From Pagrus major (Eukaryota; Chordata; Actinopteri; Spariformes; Sparidae), in contig NC_133225.1 in NCBI RefSeq assembly GCF_040436345.1, forward strand, positions 23,106,040 to 23,170,039: DNA of 64,000 nucleotides, given 5' to 3'. The position numbers and the translations under genes are program-made. The notes beneath the pieces were generated by a model. The model worked only from the letters and a program-made list of their open reading frames with translations. It ran no database searches and was not told the DNA's origin. The first letter of the stretch is position 1. Each line of letters starts with the position of its first letter. Shown one piece after another: positions 9,169-62,753 of the stretch.

Positions 9169-9484
9169 TTAAAGGGGCTCTAAGTAACAAGTCAACAACA
9201 ATTTCAATTTACATGCATTAACCCCTCAAATGTGAGCGGATTGTAGCGTGATGTGAAAACTGAGACTGTTTTACTGGTTTATTTGGCGGACCCTGCCACC
9301 TTTCTAGCTTCAAACAGTGTTCTGGGGACCTTATTTTCCTCTGAGAACAGCTTGTTTATTCAGTTATGGAAAAGATAAATATTTCTGATTTTGTATTATT
9401 ACCTCATTCATATTGTAAATATTAAAATTCTGAGTTTGAATTTCTTGAATTTTCAACTGAATTTCTTACATATTGCCCCTTTAA
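9169..9484. mobile_element. MITE of the AAAGGGGCACTATGTAG family, diverged copy
   Basis: The interior (GGCGGACCCTGCCACC, then TTATTTTCCTCTGAGAACAG) is shared with copies near 37.2-37.8, 38.6-38.9 and 49.5-49.8 kb. The ends AAAGGGGC and GCCCCTTT are inverted. Confidence 0.75.
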
Positions 9485-17900: not shown

Positions 17901-20900
17901 GTTTTTCTTTGGAAAATGTAACCAACCTTTGACACATGAGAGGTCTTGGTCTTCTTGGGGTCTGAGAAGGCAGAGAGGGGGATGGTGGGGAGCATCGGGT
18001 AGTCTGGACTGGGCCTCGACACGGCCTCAGCTCCCTCTGGAACCACCAATACCTGAAATCAAAGAGACAAGAGTCATGGAAGCCACTGAATATATACTGT
18101 AAATTCTCCAAAAATGTACAGGGCCTTTATTTATTTTCACTAATGAGAAAACCAGACTTTTATAGAGGAAAAGGAAATTTTGGCCCTGGTTCTGTATGTA
18201 AAAGTCCCCGTCAAAGACAATGATACGTGACTCACAGTTCAAGCACTTCTACAGCGTGAGTCATCAGTACAAAACATTGCACAGTAACTGAGTGCTGCTA
18301 ACTGCGAGTTTAAGCTTAAGATTAAGGTTCTGACAAAACAGATTGTGAAGCAAACAAAGAATCCTGCACACTTTACAACATTTGTACCAATTTTATAAAC
18401 AACATTTGGTCCTCAGATCTTCATCAGGCAAAGCTCATATGTTGCAACATTTTTGTTCACAAAAAGCTGTCAGCCACGCCAAACTGATTGGAATAAATAT
18501 AATTTCTCTGTAACAAAGATGAAAAGTTAAAACTGATGAACATAACATAAACCTTTATGATCATTACATTATGCAGGAAAGTCACGTTTTTCTTTGTTAA
18601 GTTTAATGAAGTTAAATTCATGACTTTTTAATAGGGATAGACCGATTGTCAGCCTGGCTGATTGTTGGGGCTGATATTCAGTACGGGTGATATTTCTGTC
18701 AGATTGCCAATAAAATAAAAAAATAATTTTAAAATGTACTACTTTGGCTCTGATGCAGCATTATACTTAGCAGACAAAGGAAATACTCTTACATAATACA
18801 AATACAACTCTTAAGATTTTTTATTTTTTCTGCAAATCCATATCAGATCTAAATATTGGTTATCAGTCTCCTTGGTTTCTAATAATCAGTATCCGCCCTG
18901 AAAAAGTCGTATGGGTTGATCCCTACTTGTTGAAACTACTTAGTAAACATACACAACATATTACCTGTTTAACAACCATGCCTGCGAACATATGTTAGCA
19001 TGATGGATAACGAGCAGGGACAATATGGCCTAGAATGAGCCAGCTGCATACTGTTTTTTTCGGTGCTTCCCAGCAGTATATAACAATTTTTTCAATTAAA
19101 ACATTTCAAGGTGGGCACCCAAGAATAGTGTCACCAATTCGGTATCTGACCAAACATAAAATGTGGTCACAATCTCTGAGTGATGGCACTGAATAATGGC
19201 CATAAAATGTGTGACAGTGAACTTGATCTAATCAGTTCATCGTTAAGTCCAATGGAACATTTTTGACAAATTTGAAGAAATTCCCTCAAGGCGTTCCTTA
19301 GATATTGCGTTCATGAGAAAGGGATGGATGGATGGACTGACAACCCGAAAACATAATAAAAAAGGTTTGAAAAGCCGCCTGTACGCACAATCCAGCATCG
19401 CAACAATCCCATTTTAGTGTTTAGTATTTATTAACATTACTAACAATCTAGGGCCTTTTTTGGGGAACTGAATTCAATGATTTTGAAGATGTTTCAAGAC
19501 CTGCAGATACCCTGCAGTGATGATATAGTTTAAAGACAGACTTCAAATGGGGGAATAAAAATCTTCACACCCGTATTTGAGAATTCATAAAAAACATCAT
19601 GTGGTAGCTGCTATTACAGCCCTACTGTTTACTAAAGTCACTTATTTAGCCATCAGTCTAGTCAACCTGGCAGCCAGCCAGTGTGTCAGGCAGCCTCACC
19701 CCTCCAGCTTTGATCAGCTTTCTCCTGAATTCTTTGGTGGGGTTGTTGAAGGTGAGCTTCTCACAGCGCAGGTGGTTCACTGGTGGGTTGCCCTCCAAGT
19801 TAAGGAAGAGGTCGTAGTTGAAACACACCTTTTTTGGCTCCTCCTGAAGAAAGACAGCAGATAAAGACTGTTTAAACCCTCCTGTAACAGTAATGTGACA
19901 CAAACTAATCTGTGTTTGTCTTACTGCATTACTGCCCTTCATACCGTCACCTCTCAATACCTGCATATTTCACAACAAAAGATAAAAGCTGAATGAATGA
20001 ACTATCACCCTGGAAGTCAATAAAAGAGACAGACAAAGCTGGAGCCGGCACACTGATAAGAAACGAGTAACATTCCTGAGAGAAGCTTTAGAGGAGAGGA
20101 CAATTAAAGCAGAGAGAAAGCATTAACACACACTGAGGGATTCTACAAAACAAAATGTCTTCTTGTAAAGCAGGTGGAATAATGGCTGCTGATGTTTACA
20201 CTCCTTGTGATTGCCTTTGAGTATTTTCATCATCTTCTTGACAGATTTGTCCACTGTGTGTAAGTTAATCGCACCTAAGAGGAGGAAGTAACATTGTTGG
20301 GTGCAGTCCAGAGGTTTAATATTGTAAAGAACTGCAGGAGCTGCACTAATGTGCACAGACCTCTGAAGCACCATCCTTATCTTGTAATGAGAGTTAAGTG
20401 GTTCTTTCTGTCTTTCATCATTCTTTTAAACGGCTAATGGAGACTTAAAGGTGCCAGTATAATAGGGTGTACTTATTTTATTTCTATCACTTAAGGAGAG
20501 AAATGTCCCCTATTAAAGTAATGTTTTACTAACACAATTGCTCATTCTGATTGGCTGAGTGGATATATAATAAATATATATGTACTGTATAATAACTCTT
20601 ATTGACCTACTGGAGAGTGTGTTAGTAAGGTTGACCAAAGAGACAGAGCATCGCTGTGCTGCACTCAAACACTATACGTGCACTTAAGTAATCTGATTAT
20701 TTCTGGCTTTGGGCAATAACCTGATTTCTGAAGTATCATGGTAAAAGGAACAGCTGCTTTCTTTTGCCAAGTTAAGGAATTAACCTGGTAAACAAGGTTG
20801 CATTTCTGCTAGAAAAACCTGTTTTTCCCCCGTAACCCAGATTTGTATGTTTATGGAAAGGCAGTCTAAGCTTGGTCTTAATCCGCCGTGAAGCTTAAAA

Positions 20901-30844: not shown

Positions 30845-31597
30845 TACGGAAGCCCTAAAGGGCCATGCATTCATACATTTTATATCCTCCGTTTTCCCGC
30901 GATAAGTTAATTTCATTTGTTTTCTCGAGATCTCGAGTTATTATCTCGAAATAACAACTGCCGTTTTCCCGAGATAACGTGATAATTTTCTCGAGATCTC
31001 GAGATAACGAAACTTTGTTTTCCCGAGATAACAATATAATTAATTTGAGATCTTGAGAAAACAAAATAATAGTGTAGTATATGAAATCATTGCAGGAAAC
31101 ATCATTCAGTGTAGCAATGTCAGAGGATCATTGTCATACATGTCATATCGTCACATATCTTTTCAATCAAGGCCTGACACAGCCTGAAATAGCATTATGC
31201 CTTGCTATTACAGATAATATACACATTAATGTGCGTAATCTAAAAAGACGGTTAGCAAGGCTTCAGCTATATCGGCGGCGCAATCTAAGTGAGCCTGATG
31301 TCGTCGTTAACTACATAGCTGACCAGCTACGAGGTCCCGGGCGTCTCCATAATCTCAGGCCTATCATATCACAGTCATTATCTCGAGATCTCAAATTAAT
31401 TATATTGTTATCTCGGGAAAACAAAGTTTCGTTATCTCGAAATCTCAAGAAAATTATCACGTTATCTCGGGAAAACGACAGTTGTTATTTCGAGATAATA
31501 ACTCGAGATCTCGAGAAAACAAATGAAATTAACTCGTTATCACGGGAAAACGGAGGAAATAAAATGTATGAATGCATGGCCCTTTAGGGCTTCCGTA
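30845..31597 (+). mobile_element. Complete non-autonomous DNA transposon with ~217-bp inverted repeats and 6-bp target duplication (IS3EU-like candidate)
   Basis: Both ends begin TACGGAAGCCCTAAAGGGCC in inverted orientation. CATTAC is duplicated directly outside (30839-30844 and 31598-31603). The arms run about 30845-31060 and 31381-31597 and are built from repeated units around TCTCGAGATCTCGAG and TTTTCCCGAGATAAC. The central ~320 bp contains an open frame starting at 31081. It includes LTQPEIALCL, NLKRRLARL and GPGRLHN, resembling the N-terminal helix-turn-helix of an integrase-type (rve/DDE) transposase. No catalytic domain is present. The 6-bp duplication, long arms and integrase-like fragment suggest the IS3EU group; this assignment is inference. 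Confidence 0.85.
31081..31380 (+). pseudogene. Truncated integrase-type transposase N-terminus inside the 30.8-31.6 kb element
   Basis: About 100 codons read MKSLQETSFS ... LNQ-type helix-turn-helix ... GPGRLHN before running into the right inverted repeat, where the frame continues as low-complexity translation of the arm (to 31587). The pattern of Leu-Thr-x-x-Glu-Ile helices followed by a basic KRRLARLQLYRRR helix and a G-x-GRLH turn is what I associate with integrase-like fish transposases. The catalytic core is absent, so the element could only move with help from an intact relative. Confidence 0.55.
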
Positions 31598-32786: not shown

Positions 32787-33205
32787 CTTACTCAGCCTGT
32801 CTCAAACGTCTAATTCAAATGTTTAATCTGGAAAGAAAGCAGTACGTCCTCTGATTGAAGACTTCTCTTTCATACAGAGTGAGGGAGCGAGGGCCCGTTG
32901 CAGTCAAGTCTCTGTGGTGCTCAGACTTTGATGTGAGATTATCGGGCCTCAGCTATGGGACAGAAGGTCAGCACTCTCTCACTGGCTTGGTGCCTCCTTT
33001 TCTTCTCCTGCCGCTCAAACTGATCCAGTCTGCCTCTCAGTCAAGTCTGAGTAAAAGAAGTCCCACCTGGCTGTCAGACACGAGGGTGTCCCACTTGTAT
33101 TGAGGCATCAACCTTTAAATCCTCCTTTTCAATTTGTAGGAAGAGGGAGAATCACAAAATGAAGCAATGTTGCACAGGTTTCACACATGTAAAAGAACTT
33201 TATTA
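32787..33205. repeat. Duplicated block, copy 1 (partner 40710-41085, direct orientation)
   Basis: Long runs are nearly identical to 40710-41085, such as GAGTGAGGGAGCGAGGGCCC, GACTTTGATGTGAGATTATC and CACTTGTATTGAG. Copy 1 has an extra ~37 bases after GTTTAATCT. The right part includes the minus-strand AATAAA (AACTTTATT). In copy 2 this block is the 3' end of ACER1 and its downstream flank, so copy 1 marks one edge of a tandem duplication. Confidence 0.9.
33199..33204 (-). promoter_or_regulatory. Candidate poly(A) signal for the YEATS-only MLLT1-like gene
   Basis: AATAAA on the minus strand (AACTTTATT on the plus strand) lies 275 bases past the stop codon. It sits in the block homologous to the ACER1 3' end (AATAAA at 41075-41080), so the duplicated gene may use a poly(A) site captured from ACER1. 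Confidence 0.5.
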
Positions 33206-33478: not shown

Positions 33479-36400
33479 TCATTTGGCTCTTCCCTTGTCA
33501 GTTTGTCTGCTGGTGCCACTTCCTTCTTTGCTGGGTTCCTAAAGAGGGAACACATTTGGATGCACAGCACCACCGTCATTATCTATCATCTAGAGACACA
33601 ATCATCTCCTCCCAAAATGTGCTGTCGTGAAATTATTTGCTGCTTTTGTCAGGGAGAACGTAAGCCAAAATAACACACAGCAATAACAATAAGACTCATT
33701 ACTCGGCGTGGAAACTAATTCATCAAACTAAATCTTTCTCTGTGTAATAAAAAAGGGTGAATATTATACACAATAAAAAAGGCAGTCCAAACAATACCAC
33801 AATTAACAAAAAAAGACTACTAAACATACTACGCTACTACAATATATTTTGGAATATTTACTCACTGCTCTTGCTATCAGCCGCCAATCTCGACTGACAA
33901 ACTGAGGCAATATATAACCAAATTTAAGCAGGTGGTTAAAGCAAAACCATTAAATATGTACACTGGAAATAAAACCCCTGTTGCTGTAGGTGTTGACTTT
34001 GGACAGCAGGGGGTGTAGTTTCACCCTCTCTTGGAGCAGAGTGCTTGCCGAGATGTAAGGTGGCCTCGATAAAATACAGGAAGTACATCATAACATCGAC
34101 AGTGAGAATATTTATGAATAACGTATTTAGCCATTGTATTGAATGTATTTAGCCATAGGGACACATTTCATTTCCTCTGTAAAATAAAGAAGTTTCCAAG
34201 TCTGATCTCACCGTATCGTGATTTAAGAAGGCATTGCTGTTCCCTATGGAGGGGCCACTGCCATGTTTGTGTTGTATTTGTGCCTTATTTATGCAGGAAT
34301 AGCACTGGATTTTTTATTTACTTTTTGCTAGTTTCTTTTTATAAACTGGCAACCAGTTCCTTGAGTGGAATGAAGCTTTATATTTTGACTTTTATAACAT
34401 AAATAATTAAGGGTAAAATTGGGATGACAAGGGAAAAAAACACAAAATAGCATCTGAAGTGGTGTATGAGATTCATCACAGCTTAACAAAAAAGCAAGTC
34501 AAACAGATTTTTTCAGAAGCTTGTGTCAGTACCTTGTTAAGATTGGCAATTTGATTTTAAGAAATGCATTGCCAAATTTTCAGTATCTTTAAAAAAAAAA
34601 AAAAACACCACACAAATGTATTGGAATGATCAATAAAGGCTTGACACTGTTTCAGGTTAACTTATCTAAAACAATATGAGCAGGCTGAGAGTGCTACTGA
34701 GATTTTCTACATGCAGGGATCATAATGCTGACCAACCTGTGACACATGACAGGTCTTGATCTTCTTCTTTGGGAGCATTGGAGAGTCTTGACTGGACCGT
34801 GACGAAGCCTCAGCCCCCTCTGGAACCACCTTTACCTTAAATGGAGGGACAACAGTTATGTGTTATCTGTGTAGTAGTTACAGTCATTTTAAAGCCACTG
34901 TACTTTAGACACACACTGTAAATACTGAAATATTTGCCTGGGCTTTTATTTACCTTAACTAAAGACAGAACTAGATATATTATATACAGTACTCTTCATT
35001 ACATGGTCACTGCGACTATTTACTGTTCAGTCACTTAGCTATCAGCCCAATCAATCAGCCAGTGTCTCCGGCAGCCTCACCCCTCCAGCTTTGATCAGCT
35101 TTCTCTTGAAGTCTTTGTTGGGGTTGTTGAAGGTAATAGTCTCACAACGCAGGTGGTCGCCCCCTGGCTTAAGGTTTAGGTTGTAGCTAAAACACACCTT
35201 TTTTGGCTTGTCCTGAAAGAAACAATAGAGAGAGTGTTTTATCAAGCTAATCTGTTAGCTTTTTTACCGTCTTGTGTGACAGAAAGTAGCTTGTATTTGT
35301 CTTTCTGCATCACAGAAGACATACAGTTGAATGAATAACACATCGATAAAACAGACAGACATAGTCTTTCCATCTCAAACATTTCAGTTGTAGAGAGCGG
35401 GACAAGTGAAGCTTAAGGAGAAGGCATGAAGACACCCTTGAGATATTTCATAAACACAAATGTCTTGTTTGTTTGTCTTTAGTGCATTTTTTATTTTCTT
35501 GACAGATTTGTCCATCTCCTTCACCTTGTTCTTGAGGAAAACTTCGATATGCATGAGGAAGTCATTGGAGCCCGACTCCACCACTTTGTACGGAGGCTCT
35601 GTGAATACTGAACAGACACAGATGACATGATAGAAATACTGGTAATAGTTACAGTGACATTAAACTGATAATATTCTTAGTGCTGACAAATGAATGAGTT
35701 TCATGTGATCAAGGGACAAAGGCAGAGAATAAATCCAGTCAATTTTCTTATCTTTTTCTTTCCCTTTGTAAAGGGAGGGAGGTTGCAGAGACATCAACAT
35801 CTCCTGACCAATTTCCTGGGGGAAACCCTGCATGAATGTGTTATGCTGCACTTCTTAATGTATTTTGTGCAAACTCAGGCAGTTCAAATAGCCTTAAGCT
35901 AAGTAGCCTTAAGCTATTTCAACTGCCTTTTTGTATGAATGTGCTATATAAATATATGATTCTTACATCCACAGTGGGGTCCCAAAGGCTTAGACTACAT
36001 TACAAATATTTAATATTCTTACATAAACTTGGGAATAATCAAAGTTTGAGGATTTAAGAATCATTGAAAACACAGTTTTATGACTGGTAAAATGTAGAAG
36101 ATACATTTAAGATCCAGCAGTATTTCTAGGTCAGCAACAGTGGTTTGACCACCTTTGACCTCCTCTGTACAAAAGGTCAGATTTGCTTGAAGTGTAAAAC
36201 TTTCAATGAAGAAAGACATACTAGATTTGGTTTAATCTTCAGGCCTTGTTCACTTGTAGCCAGTCTTCACTCCATTATAAATATATATTTGCCTCAAGTT
36301 TCCAGCAGATCATTGCTCACTTAGTAACATTGTGACGGGGGAAACATGGCATTAGAACTAAGTGGTTGTGTCAGGAAGTCAAATGTTAATCCAAGCAAAG

Positions 36401-38048
36401 AGGGGCTTTCATGCCAAGATATTCTGGAATTTATGCTCATTTTTGAGGATTCAACTTTTCACTCAAAATAAAAAAAAATAAAAAAAAATAGTGTTACATT
36501 CAAAACAAACGTAAAATAGAAGTATTTGGACTAGTGAACTCAGATTTTTGGACTCTACTGTATTTGCAAAGTGAAAGGTTGTGGTCATGCGCATGTTCAG
36601 ATTTGATTGCCATACCTCTCTTGGGTTTGGGGTAGCTCTCATGCAGGTGGAAGACAACTTTGTGTGTGAAGTGCTGAATGTCATCAGTCTGTTGCCCTCG
36701 GACAAAAACAGTCCAGTCGTGGGTGAAGTCCTCTGATGTTTCCCTCTCTCTTAGCTGGACTGTGTGGCCCAACTCAAGATTCACCTGAACTTTAGACTAC
36801 AAGGGCCAGAAACAAGAGAGTAAAACACTGTGCTTCAAAAGGCCAGAGAAAGAACAAGAATGCAATTCACATGCAAATACTACCCTTAAACAATTACAAC
36901 GGTTATTATCTCTAACTGTTGTCAAACACCAAAAGTTAGGTCAACTCCATCCTTGGAGTCGGACCTTGATATGCAGTTGAAAGAGCACGAAAAAGTGGCT
37001 AAGAGAACCTTTGGTGCCAGACTGTAGGCTCCACATTAATCTTTCATTATACTTACCAATTTACTTTATATCTAATAGATGTTTTGAATAGAGAAGTGTC
37101 AGCTAGTTTTGTTGGAAAGGCATCAGGCAATCAAAGGCAGCCAGAGGGGAGTCCCAAACAGCCTATATACATATATCCCACCAGTTAAAGGTGACCTATG
37201 TAGTTTTTGGGAAGACATTTTAATCAGATAAGGAAAATACACAAACTGGCCTTAAAGGCCAACACAAATTCAAACTGTTTTATGGTCATACTACAGAAAC
37301 GTCCACTTTTGGAAGGGCAACATGTCTGAAAATTGACTTCCTTTTCTAATATTTAAACTTAGACCTCATTATTCCATAACTCATTGACTCTAAAAATACA
37401 CATAAATAAAGGCTTAATTACTTTTTTTTTTAAAACTGGTGTTACTCATAAGGAAAGGAACACCAGTGATTTCCTTCTATACATGACTGGGGACAAAAAC
37501 AAATTGATGGCCCAACAGACAGTAGTTGTTCAAATAACCTATTGTTTTATTATAAAATATGACAAGAACTTAAGTCACAAGTGTTTTTCAGGTGTAATGT
37601 TTCTGTAAAGGCTAGGACCAGAAAAATGGACGTTTCCATAGAATTACCCTTTATTTTGTTTATATGTGGCGGACCCTGCCACCTCTCTAGCTTCAAACAG
37701 TGTTCTTATTTTCCTCTGAGGAAGGAAATAAAAATATCCCTGAGTTTGTATTATTACCTCATCAATATTGTAAGTATTACCTTTCTGAGTTTCTTTTCCA
37801 AAACGACATAGTGCACCTTTAATATTGAGGGGTGTAGAAGCAGTATGACTACTCACCCTGTGATCCTAGCTACACTTTTTATAAACACTTTAGCATTTGA
37901 TGAGTGTCAGGATATACTTTACATCCACTTTGCACAAAATAACCTCGACTTTTGACGTTTAGTGAAGAGGAAAAACATTCAGTTAGTCTGACAGCTGGCT
38001 AACGGGAAAATATATCATACAGAGATGAAGCCACAGTACCTGGTCCAT
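33479..38048 (-). CDS. YEATS-only MLLT1-like gene, partial tandem duplicate with intact frame (187 aa)
   Basis: Minus-strand exons 38040-38048 (MDQ), 36616-36796, 35525-35607, 35081-35212, 34737-34835 and 33479-33538 correspond one for one to MLLT1 exons 1-6. Exons 2 and 3 keep exact lengths (181 and 83). Exon 4 lost 12 bases and exon 5 lost 27, both in frame. All junctions are AG/GT and there is no internal stop. Exon 6 is only a remnant: EPSKEGSG, then a diverged tail and TGA at 33479-33481. The product is a YEATS domain plus a short basic tail (PKKKIKT), without linker or AHD. FTHDW and HLHES are kept, but F59, Y78, A79 and G80 of ENL are Y58, S77, N78 and D79 here, so acyl-lysine binding is probably impaired. 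Retained introns exclude a retrocopy. An unexpressed pseudogene with open exons remains possible. Confidence 0.83.
33961..34090. other. Intron between exons 5 and 6 of the MLLT1-like gene
   Basis: CAGCAGGGGGTGTAG-type sequence here resembles a dispersed repeat tail. Nothing else is seen in the 33,539-34,736 intron. Confidence 0.3.
37190..37822. mobile_element. MITE of the AAAGGGGCACTATGTAG family, in intron 1 of the MLLT1-like gene
   Basis: Left end AAAGGTGACCTATGTAGTTTTTGG, right end ACGACATAGTGCACCTTTAAT. The interior GGCGGACCCTGCCACCTCTCTAGC is shared with three other copies. At about 630 bp it is longer than its relatives, so it probably contains a secondary insertion. Confidence 0.75.
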
Positions 38049-38189
38049 GTTGTGTGTCGGCCCAGCCGCCATCTTCAGTCTGCAGTACCGTGAGCCCTGT
38101 GCACAGATGCTGCTGCACACAACAGTTTGGACAACAGACCGAAAGTAACGGTCGCCACACAGGAAGTCTCTCTGTCAGTTTTAAGAGTG

Positions 38190-38583: not shown

Positions 38584-38942
38584 TTAAAGGTGCAGTATGT
38601 AGTTTTAATCAGAAGAGAAAGATCTTCACTGACTGATGTTTTTATGCCTGAACAAACTCAATAAACAAATCCTCTTTGTTTTCACGACTGAATACACTGA
38701 ATAAACAAACTGACCTTTGGGACAACACAATTTCATACTGTTTTTTTACTTTGTTTATATGTGGCGGACCCTGCCACCTTTCTAGCTTCAGACAGTGTTC
38801 TAGGGACCTTATTTTCCTCTGAGAACAGCTTATTTATTCAGTTATGGAAAATATATATTTGTCAGTTTGTGTTATTACTTCATTAATATTGAAAATATTA
38901 AAAGTTTGAATATCTTCTCCAAAACTACATAGTGCCCCTTTG
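38584..38942. mobile_element. MITE of the AAAGGGGCACTATGTAG family, complete copy
   Basis: Ends AAAGGTGCAGTATGTAGTTTT and AAAACTACATAGTGCCCCTTT are inverted. The interior GGCGGACCCTGCCACC is shared with the other copies. Confidence 0.85.
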
Positions 38943-40709: not shown

Positions 40710-41085
40710 TCTTACTCAGCCTCTGTCTCAAACGTCTAATTCAGATGTTTAATCTTTCATACAGAGTGAGGGAGCGAGGGCCCAGTGCAGTCAAGTCTCT
40801 GTGGTGCTCAGACTTTGATGTGAGATTATCGGGTTTAGCTATGGGACAGAAGGTCACTACTCTCTCACTGGCTTGGTGCCTCCTTTTCTTCCCCTGCCTC
40901 TCAAACTGATCCAGTCTGCCTCTCAGTCAAGTCTGAGTCAGAAATGACCCACCTGGCTGTCAGACATGAGGGTGTCCCACTTGTATTGAGACATCAACCT
41001 TTAAATCCTCCCATCTAAATATGAAGAGAGAGGGAGAAACACAAAATGATGCAATGTCACACACATAACAGAACTTTATTGGTTT
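40710..41085. repeat. Duplicated block, copy 2 (partner 32787-33205), at the 3' end of ACER1
   Basis: Same block in direct orientation. It spans the candidate ACER1 poly(A) signal and the sequence beyond it. It lacks the ~37 bases found in copy 1 and is otherwise closely similar. Confidence 0.9.
41075..41080 (-). promoter_or_regulatory. Candidate ACER1 poly(A) signal
   Basis: AATAAA on the minus strand, about 1.9 kb past the ACER1 stop. No coding sequence lies in between. Confidence 0.4.

Positions 41086-51028: not shown

Positions 51029-62753
<11,725 letters not shown>

Follow-up and report, generated by a model that had tools for sequence, protein, structure and literature searches.

Can a YEATS domain persist as a gene of its own in a vertebrate once it has been separated from its recruiting end and stripped of the residue that cages acylated lysine? 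This question is raised by a 64,000-nucleotide stretch of the Pagrus major genome (NC_133225.1, positions 23,106,040 to 23,170,039 of the forward strand; hereafter the window), in which a shortened second copy of MLLT1, the gene for ENL, accompanies the complete gene. An earlier note on this DNA had described the copy as an intact MLLT1 duplicate for a YEATS domain alone that is not brand new, a description that our analysis supports. We find the copy to be a transcribed-looking, taxon-restricted ENL paralogue that is cut down to the YEATS domain and has lost the acyl-lysine cage residue.

A tandem duplicate of MLLT1 encoding only a YEATS domain

The copy sits upstream of MLLT1 on the same strand, head-to-tail (Table 1). 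When rebuilt and paired with the complete parent gene, its six minus-strand exons match MLLT1 exons 1-6 one for one, as the earlier note had it, with exons 2 and 3 equal in length (181 and 83 bases). The note had counted two in-frame length changes; there are three, in exon 1 (9 bases from 38048 onward, vs 12 in MLLT1), exon 4 (132 vs 144) and exon 5 (99 vs 126), and all of them (3, 12 and 27 bases) are indeed multiples of three. Its other structural claims were confirmed: AG/GT is present at every junction, and the coding sequence from 38048 runs for 561 bases without a stop, followed by the stop codon. The Pagrus copy thus has neither the broken frame nor the broken splice sites of an unprocessed pseudogene, and a retrocopy or processed pseudogene is ruled out by its five introns with AG/GT borders.

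The product is 187 amino acids long from the ATG at 38048, or 195 from the ATG at 38072. The 195-residue form is 100% identical to an NCBI predicted protein, "protein ENL-like [Pagrus major]", the model of which starts at 38072, so the gene is already known as an automatic prediction. The note's remark that no YEATS-only ENL paralogue had been described fails in this respect and holds for the open-access literature on YEATS and MLLT1 duplicates in fishes, where titles and abstract openings (subscription literature being outside the scope) gave no paper pointing to the copy gene. The protein scores above the cut-off of the Pfam YEATS family (PF03366, E 1.6e-25), is predicted to have the YEATS fold and matches ENL in the PDB with E 5.1e-57; these E values exclude a chance similarity.

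Homology to the parent extends to a promoter-like block in the 5′ flank and to the intron edges, and the duplicated segment takes in the start of intron 1, as read by eye. Together with the exon pairing and with trees that place the copy inside teleost ENL, this assigns the copy to the MLLT1 lineage, and we regard it as virtually certain that the copy is a real tandem duplicate. Residues 1-190 of Pagrus MLLT1 are identical to the ENL of Siniperca, Thunnus and Parambassis. Between copy and MLLT1, synonymous divergence is uneven: 0.67 for exon 2, 0.54 for exon 6 and 0.28-0.40 for exons 3-5, each from few sites. This unevenness bears on exon-wise gene conversion.

What the copy lacks is the C-terminal AHD of the ENL/AF9 family. 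An AHD probe run on the window found nothing of note outside MLLT1, where it matched at 11.3 and 10.9 kb, and no match is significant in or after the copy; one further row at 43.6 kb has an E value of 0.79 and contains stops. Beyond exon 6, two linker-bearing ENL probes likewise matched the window only in MLLT1, with the exception of one plus-strand row at 39.5 kb (E 0.11, with a stop). The claim that the copy is without both linker and AHD therefore stands.

Table 1. Features of the window (aa, amino acids; ORF, open reading frame)
Feature	Position	Strand	Remarks
MLLT1 (ENL), parent gene	30101 to 10742	-	12 coding exons; 589 aa with YEATS domain and AHD; complete in the window
Promoter-like block of the copy	38500-38442	-	two ATTGG (inverted CCAAT) boxes; 80% identical to 30320-30263 upstream of MLLT1; candidate promoter
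Copy exon 1, coding part	38072-38040	-	upstream ATG at 38072; the ATG at 38048, in the same frame, is the homologue of the MLLT1 start
Copy exon 2	36796-36616	-	first portion of the YEATS domain; F28, H56 and S58 retained, F59 to Tyr
Copy exon 3	35607-35525	-	loop; G77 retained, acyl-lysine cage residue Y78 to Ser
Copy exon 4	35212-35081	-	lacks 12 bases relative to MLLT1, at or beside loop L8 (Wilms-tumour hotspot)
Copy exon 5	34835-34737	-	lacks 27 bases relative to MLLT1; carries the basic motif KKKIKT
Copy exon 6	33538-33479	-	stop codon 33481-33479
Candidate poly(A) signal, AATAAA	33436..33441	-	just past the stop codon of the copy; read by eye
Second candidate poly(A) signal of the copy	33204-33199	-	read by eye
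Exon 4 frame of the copy read into intron 4	35051-35080	-	9 codons (VRLPETLAD)
Exon 4 frame of MLLT1 read into intron 4	19658-19699	-	13 codons
Block flanking the copy, about 340 bases	32866-33204 and 40753-41080		same orientation; about 7.9 kb apart
Dispersed repeat, about 130-180 bases	9268-9445; 37662-37791; 38743-38915		past MLLT1; in copy intron 1; upstream of the copy
ORF amid repeated motifs, between copy and MLLT1 exon 1	31078-31587 and 30963-31480	+	169 aa, stop to stop; no Pfam match
ORFs of a likely class I myosin gene	51214-51543 and 61919-62221	-	match SH3 domain and myosin head

Relatives in other fishes and the acyl-lysine pocket

A search with the copy protein returned 33 matches, and one with an 11-row alignment returned 524, of which 120 are listed; our set of full-length ENLs is the best 120 of 1091 matches. 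YEATS-only relatives with open exons 2-4 were found in Siniperca chuatsi, Thunnus albacares, Scomber japonicus, S. scombrus, Perca fluviatilis, Centropristis striata and Parambassis ranga and in five further rows (P0002, P0005, P0008, P0013 and P0035), which makes 13 copies with Pagrus. We take the fishes other than Pagrus to be percomorphs of several families.

At residue 78 (ENL numbering), Ser is found in ten of the 13 copies, including that of Pagrus, Asn in the remaining three, and Tyr in none. The same position is Tyr in all 120 of the full-length ENLs and in 207 of 207 rows having that residue in a wider reference of 215 rows (244 less the 13 copies and 16 excluded rows; among the latter, P0021, P0039, P0057, P0068, P0111 and P0033 have no Tyr at 78). 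Other YEATS families have Trp in its place. No full-length ENL that uses the copy's YEATS domain is present among the best 120 of 1091. We note that the copies were chosen after residue 78 had been seen; they are the top matches once degenerate models and the full ENLs of tetrapods or unnamed sources are set aside. Omitted from the 13 are P0067, P0075, P0079, P0093, P0097 and P0115, in which exon 3 or the residue is absent or non-homologous, P0041, in which the residues around 78 are deleted, and P0029, which has exon 2 only.

The rest of the pocket varies as well: H56 is changed in 4 of the 13 copies (to D, N or P), S58 in 2 (S58G), F59 in 8 (Tyr in seven, a gap in one), F28 in 2 (to V or S) and G77 in 1. 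In Pagrus, F59Y retains an aromatic ring on the other side of the cage, and the protein is shorter than ENL by four residues at or beside loop L8. Around this loop, six of 11 copies lack four or more residues, three lack one and two lack none, with a gap position that depends on the aligner.

The ENL pocket is described as comprising H56, S58, F59 and Y78 among others, with F59 and Y78 forming an aromatic sandwich (PMC11417371), and in AF9 the acyl chain is held by Y78, F59 and F28 (PMC6212594). S58A, F59A and Y78A strongly reduce the affinity of ENL for beta-hydroxybutyrylated H3K9 (H3K9bhb) (PMC11417371), and F59A and Y78A of AF9 are termed H3K9ac-binding deficient (PMC8022399). Y78A is the reader-dead mutant of ENL (PMC11417371, PMC11250843); it abolishes gene activation by ENL tumour mutants (PMC11250843) and disconnects an ENL fusion from MOZ (PMC10082848). 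With Y78S, the Pagrus copy does not have the Y78 and F59 cage of an acyl-lysine reader, and acyl-lysine reading has very probably been lost or severely weakened in it.

In a 46-row tree, a single branch within teleost ENL (support 85/80) sets the 13 copies, which have long branches, apart from the other rows. When the six pocket columns are masked, 11 copies form a supported clade (95/92) and the Parambassis copy pairs with P0013 elsewhere; a single clade of all 13 is then weakly rejected by the approximately unbiased test (p-AU 0.042). From these trees, the copy appears to have arisen once or twice. The Parambassis-type copies have lost Y78 and yet share ∼96% identity with ENL across residues 1-141. 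Siniperca and Perca fluviatilis each have separate models for the short protein and for ENL, on equal-sized contigs, as expected of neighbours. In Parambassis the two are listed with different longest contigs (22.5 vs 25.2 Mb), which gives no indication of tandem linkage, and cluster members may mix assemblies. No short copy of the sparids Sparus aurata or Acanthopagrus latus was among the matches listed, though the full-length ENLs of both were, and this is not evidence of absence.

Five relatives lie on contigs of only 915-1907 bases and carry an unbroken frame across several exons that in Pagrus span 4.6 kb. This suggests spliced RNA as their simplest source, the alternative being an intronless copy; their source label, lgn, presumably refers to Logan assemblies of public reads. 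The ends of the copies vary. P0011 has no exon 5, and P0012 and P0013 run from exon 4 into the equivalent of Pagrus intron 4 and stop there. The exon 4 frames of the Pagrus copy and of MLLT1 read into intron 4 in a similar manner (Table 1), so that there may be a short isoform with the YEATS domain alone that terminates in intron 4, perhaps for MLLT1 too.

Three other models should be mentioned. P0042 (Cottoperca gobio) and P0125 (Micropterus salmoides) contain extra pieces of ENL exons 2-3, with exon 4 in addition in Cottoperca, that are near-identical to ENL and share a PKTG change. They keep Y78, were not counted as copies and group together, apart from the copies, in the pocket-masked tree; perhaps they stem from a separate recent duplication. 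P0244 (Muraenolepis orangiensis) combines ENL domains with PF05875 under the source name ceramidase and is probably a read-through of two adjacent genes.

Constraint, decay and the rival readings

The pairwise ratio of nonsynonymous to synonymous change (dN/dS) between copy and MLLT1 is 0.373 in exons 2-4 (bootstrap 0.22-0.62). For a view across species, neutral codon evolution without stops was simulated 500 times on the tree of the copies, with the amount of change matched to that observed; the main test used 11 copies and a tree built without the pocket columns. Changes in the copies track conservation in other YEATS proteins (rho 0.314 vs -0.017 +/- 0.086 under neutrality), and 48 of 136 sites never change where 26.4 are expected; neither value was reached in any of the 500 runs. 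Basic residues of the 90th and 130th patches show 1 change vs 9.8 (again 0/500). At the six pocket sites, there are 12 changes vs 9.8 neutral, a count reached in 127 of 500 runs. This exceeds the 5.1 changes at equally conserved sites (p 0.022, or 0.057 without residue 78), an entropy-matched result that was stronger with 13 copies (p 0.0024). The 13-copy simulation otherwise agrees, and permutation among conserved sites, which counts sequences rather than events, gives p 0.002-0.015. The scaffold of the copy has thus been constrained and the pocket free, and it is likely that selection has maintained the protein for most of its history.

The basic surface requires a closer reading. Of the 10 basic residues in the counterparts of the 60th, 90th and 130th DNA-binding patches of AF9-type YEATS domains, the Pagrus copy retains 9 (K67T being the change), with the 130th patch and part of the 90th retained in exon 4. 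Taken together, nine basic-patch residues show no significant conservation (76/500 simulations as low). The division into the 90th and 130th patches vs the 60th was made after a first look at the data, when R64 was added to the 60th patch. Because charge mutants of the 90th and 130th patches of AF9 were not soluble and folded (PMC6212594), the conservation of these two patches may be structural rather than DNA-related.

The principal rival holds that the copy is a decaying relic, a partial duplicate once useful or tolerated that now evolves almost or wholly unconstrained in many lineages and whose frame has stayed open in some of them by chance. We consider this unlikely, and a number of results nevertheless weigh against maintenance by selection and against a special meaning of the pocket loss. 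The MLLT1 protein hardly varies here among percomorphs (99-100% identity in most top rows), and therefore nearly all amino-acid change is assigned to the copy. When synonymous change is divided equally between the two genes, dN/dS on the copy lineage is ∼0.75 (0.45-1.27) in exons 2-4 and 0.87 (0.56-1.37) over all exons, both indistinguishable from 1. The earlier note's step from an intact frame to selection is only partly right, being borne out by the pairwise ratio and the fold constraint across species and weakened by the copy-lineage ratio. The 60th patch, the sole patch shown by mutation to matter for AF9 DNA binding (PMC6212594), is unconstrained in the 11 copies, with 9 changes vs 6.2 neutral and variation at K61 and K67. 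The protein database holds open frames only, which favours intact copies, and a similarity search favours conserved rows. Broken frames in relatives, which the note had named as a sign of a pseudogene, give a divided answer: the 13 copies are open in exons 2-4, whereas models of Perca flavescens, Sander lucioperca, Etheostoma spectabile and Sebastes umbrosus have no recognisable exon 3, that of Sander vitreus is without the residues around 78, and that of Xyrichtys is only a portion from the end of exon 3 onward. Such models may reflect real loss or a gene-prediction fault. ENL/AF9-like proteins of Hymenochirus, Lerista, Dendropsophus and Araneus (P0039, P0068, P0021 and P0111) also have no Y78 (N, N, C and S), so loss of this residue may be common in relaxed copies, the frog, skink and spider cases perhaps being independent losses or pseudogenes. 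The long copy branches fit a relic too. Against it, the chance of a stop-free frame under neutrality in the Pagrus lineage is 0.024 (kappa 2) to 0.045 (kappa 4) at a divergence of 0.226 and 0.055 to 0.085 at 0.168, frameshifts not counted; the three indels are all in frame, and the clade-wide fold constraint rejects the neutral no-stop model.

Other readings accept a working gene or deny an independent one. The recurrence of F59Y (7 of 13) and Y78S/N (13 of 13) under a constrained scaffold, with G77 retained in 12 of 13 copies, would fit a re-tooled reader in which Ser or Asn 78, Tyr 59 and the shortened L8 area form a pocket for a different ligand. This seems improbable to us, as H56, S58 and F28 vary among the copies in the way of a free surface, unlike a new specific site. 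A dominant-negative protein that competes with full-length ENL for acetylated histones, in line with the earlier note's idea that the copy could compete with ENL, is suggested by the predicted YEATS fold and the missing AHD. Competition for the usual histone ligand is not supported in view of Y78S, F59Y and the four residues missing at L8, given that Y78A in ENL sharply cuts acyl binding, chromatin occupancy or partner binding in the work cited above, and we rate it as very improbable. Finally, the exons might belong to MLLT1 itself as alternative exons further upstream, or stem from a fault of the assembly, in keeping with their same-strand, head-to-tail position and with the extra exon 2-3 pair in the Micropterus ENL isoform model (P0125). 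The copy has its own promoter-like block, stop and candidate poly(A) signals; full-length ENLs (the best 120 of 1091) uniformly carry the parental Y78, and Siniperca and Perca fluviatilis list both proteins as separate models, so we consider this reading very improbable as well.

We return to the copy as a maintained, acyl-blind, recruiting-dead YEATS module, a reading for which the balance between right and wrong is in our view about level. In this reading, an old partial duplication of MLLT1, comprising the 5′ flank and exons 1-6, gave rise to a gene of its own whose product is a YEATS domain followed by a short basic tail. Without Y78, its protein would bind acylated histone lysine weakly or not at all; without an AHD, it could not recruit AF4/SEC or DOT1L; and the KKKIKT tail could act as a nuclear signal. 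The outcome would be a nuclear module that keeps the non-acyl surfaces of the YEATS domain, that is, the basic side and possibly a PAF1 or TFIID contact. With Y78 lost in the copies, competition for acetyl-lysine is unlikely, and the copy may instead damp ENL/AF9 at non-acyl contacts, which we favour because AF9/ENL YEATS domains are reported to contact DNA, PAF1 and TFIID (PMC6212594, PMC4686660, PMC11096357). Such damping is offered tentatively, and we would expect it to be wrong somewhat more readily than right. The fuller proposal, that percomorph fishes keep a dedicated acyl-lysine-blind YEATS protein, possibly arisen twice, that antagonises ENL/AF9-driven elongation through DNA, PAF1 or TFIID contacts, is rather unlikely.

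Surroundings, known systems and meaning

A block of about 340 bases flanks the copy on both sides in the same orientation, with 88% identity overall and 94-98% in its core; it could be a mobile repeat or the trace of a duplication that came later. Three members of a dispersed repeat are 72-90% identical. Repeated CTCGAGAT motifs surround the 169-residue plus-strand ORF, which looks like a mobile element from its appearance. Next to the locus lie two ORFs of a likely class I myosin gene, which we take to be Myo1f.

Among known systems, ENL and AF9 (MLLT3) are the closest: the copy shares with ENL the YEATS fold, the exon 1-6 structure, the 5′ flank block and the 90th and 130th basic patches. 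It differs in having no linker, AHD or Y78, in the loss of other pocket residues in some species, in being four residues shorter in or next to L8 and in its fast evolution. GAS41/YEATS4, Taf14 and Yaf9 differ from the copy in their C-terminal domains and in carrying an aromatic side chain in the cage. The copy resembles the Y78A laboratory mutant of ENL, in that the Tyr78 side of the aromatic cage is gone and the rest of the domain is present; it differs from that mutant in its natural Ser or Asn, in its lack of an AHD and in its occurrence in several species. Wilms-tumour ENL changes at loop L8 include p.111_113NPP>K, p.112_114PPV>L and p.117_118insNHL (PMC4686660). Like the first two of these, the copy is shortened at or next to the loop, and the top structure chains for its predicted model are the ENL T2 and T3 mutants, tied with wild type. 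Its four-residue loss is natural, however, and combined with the loss of Y78, and a tumour-like gain of function would not be expected because there is no recruiting end.

ENL is a leukaemia and Wilms-tumour gene, and drugs are directed at its acyl-reading pocket. With a paralogue that occurs in nature and has the fold without the pocket, the reading of acyl marks could be told apart from the other tasks of the YEATS domain. From the copy one could learn whether a vertebrate tolerates, or makes use of, a recruiting-dead ENL reduced to its YEATS domain, and the copy raises the question of what becomes of chromatin readers after duplication and loss of their ligand.

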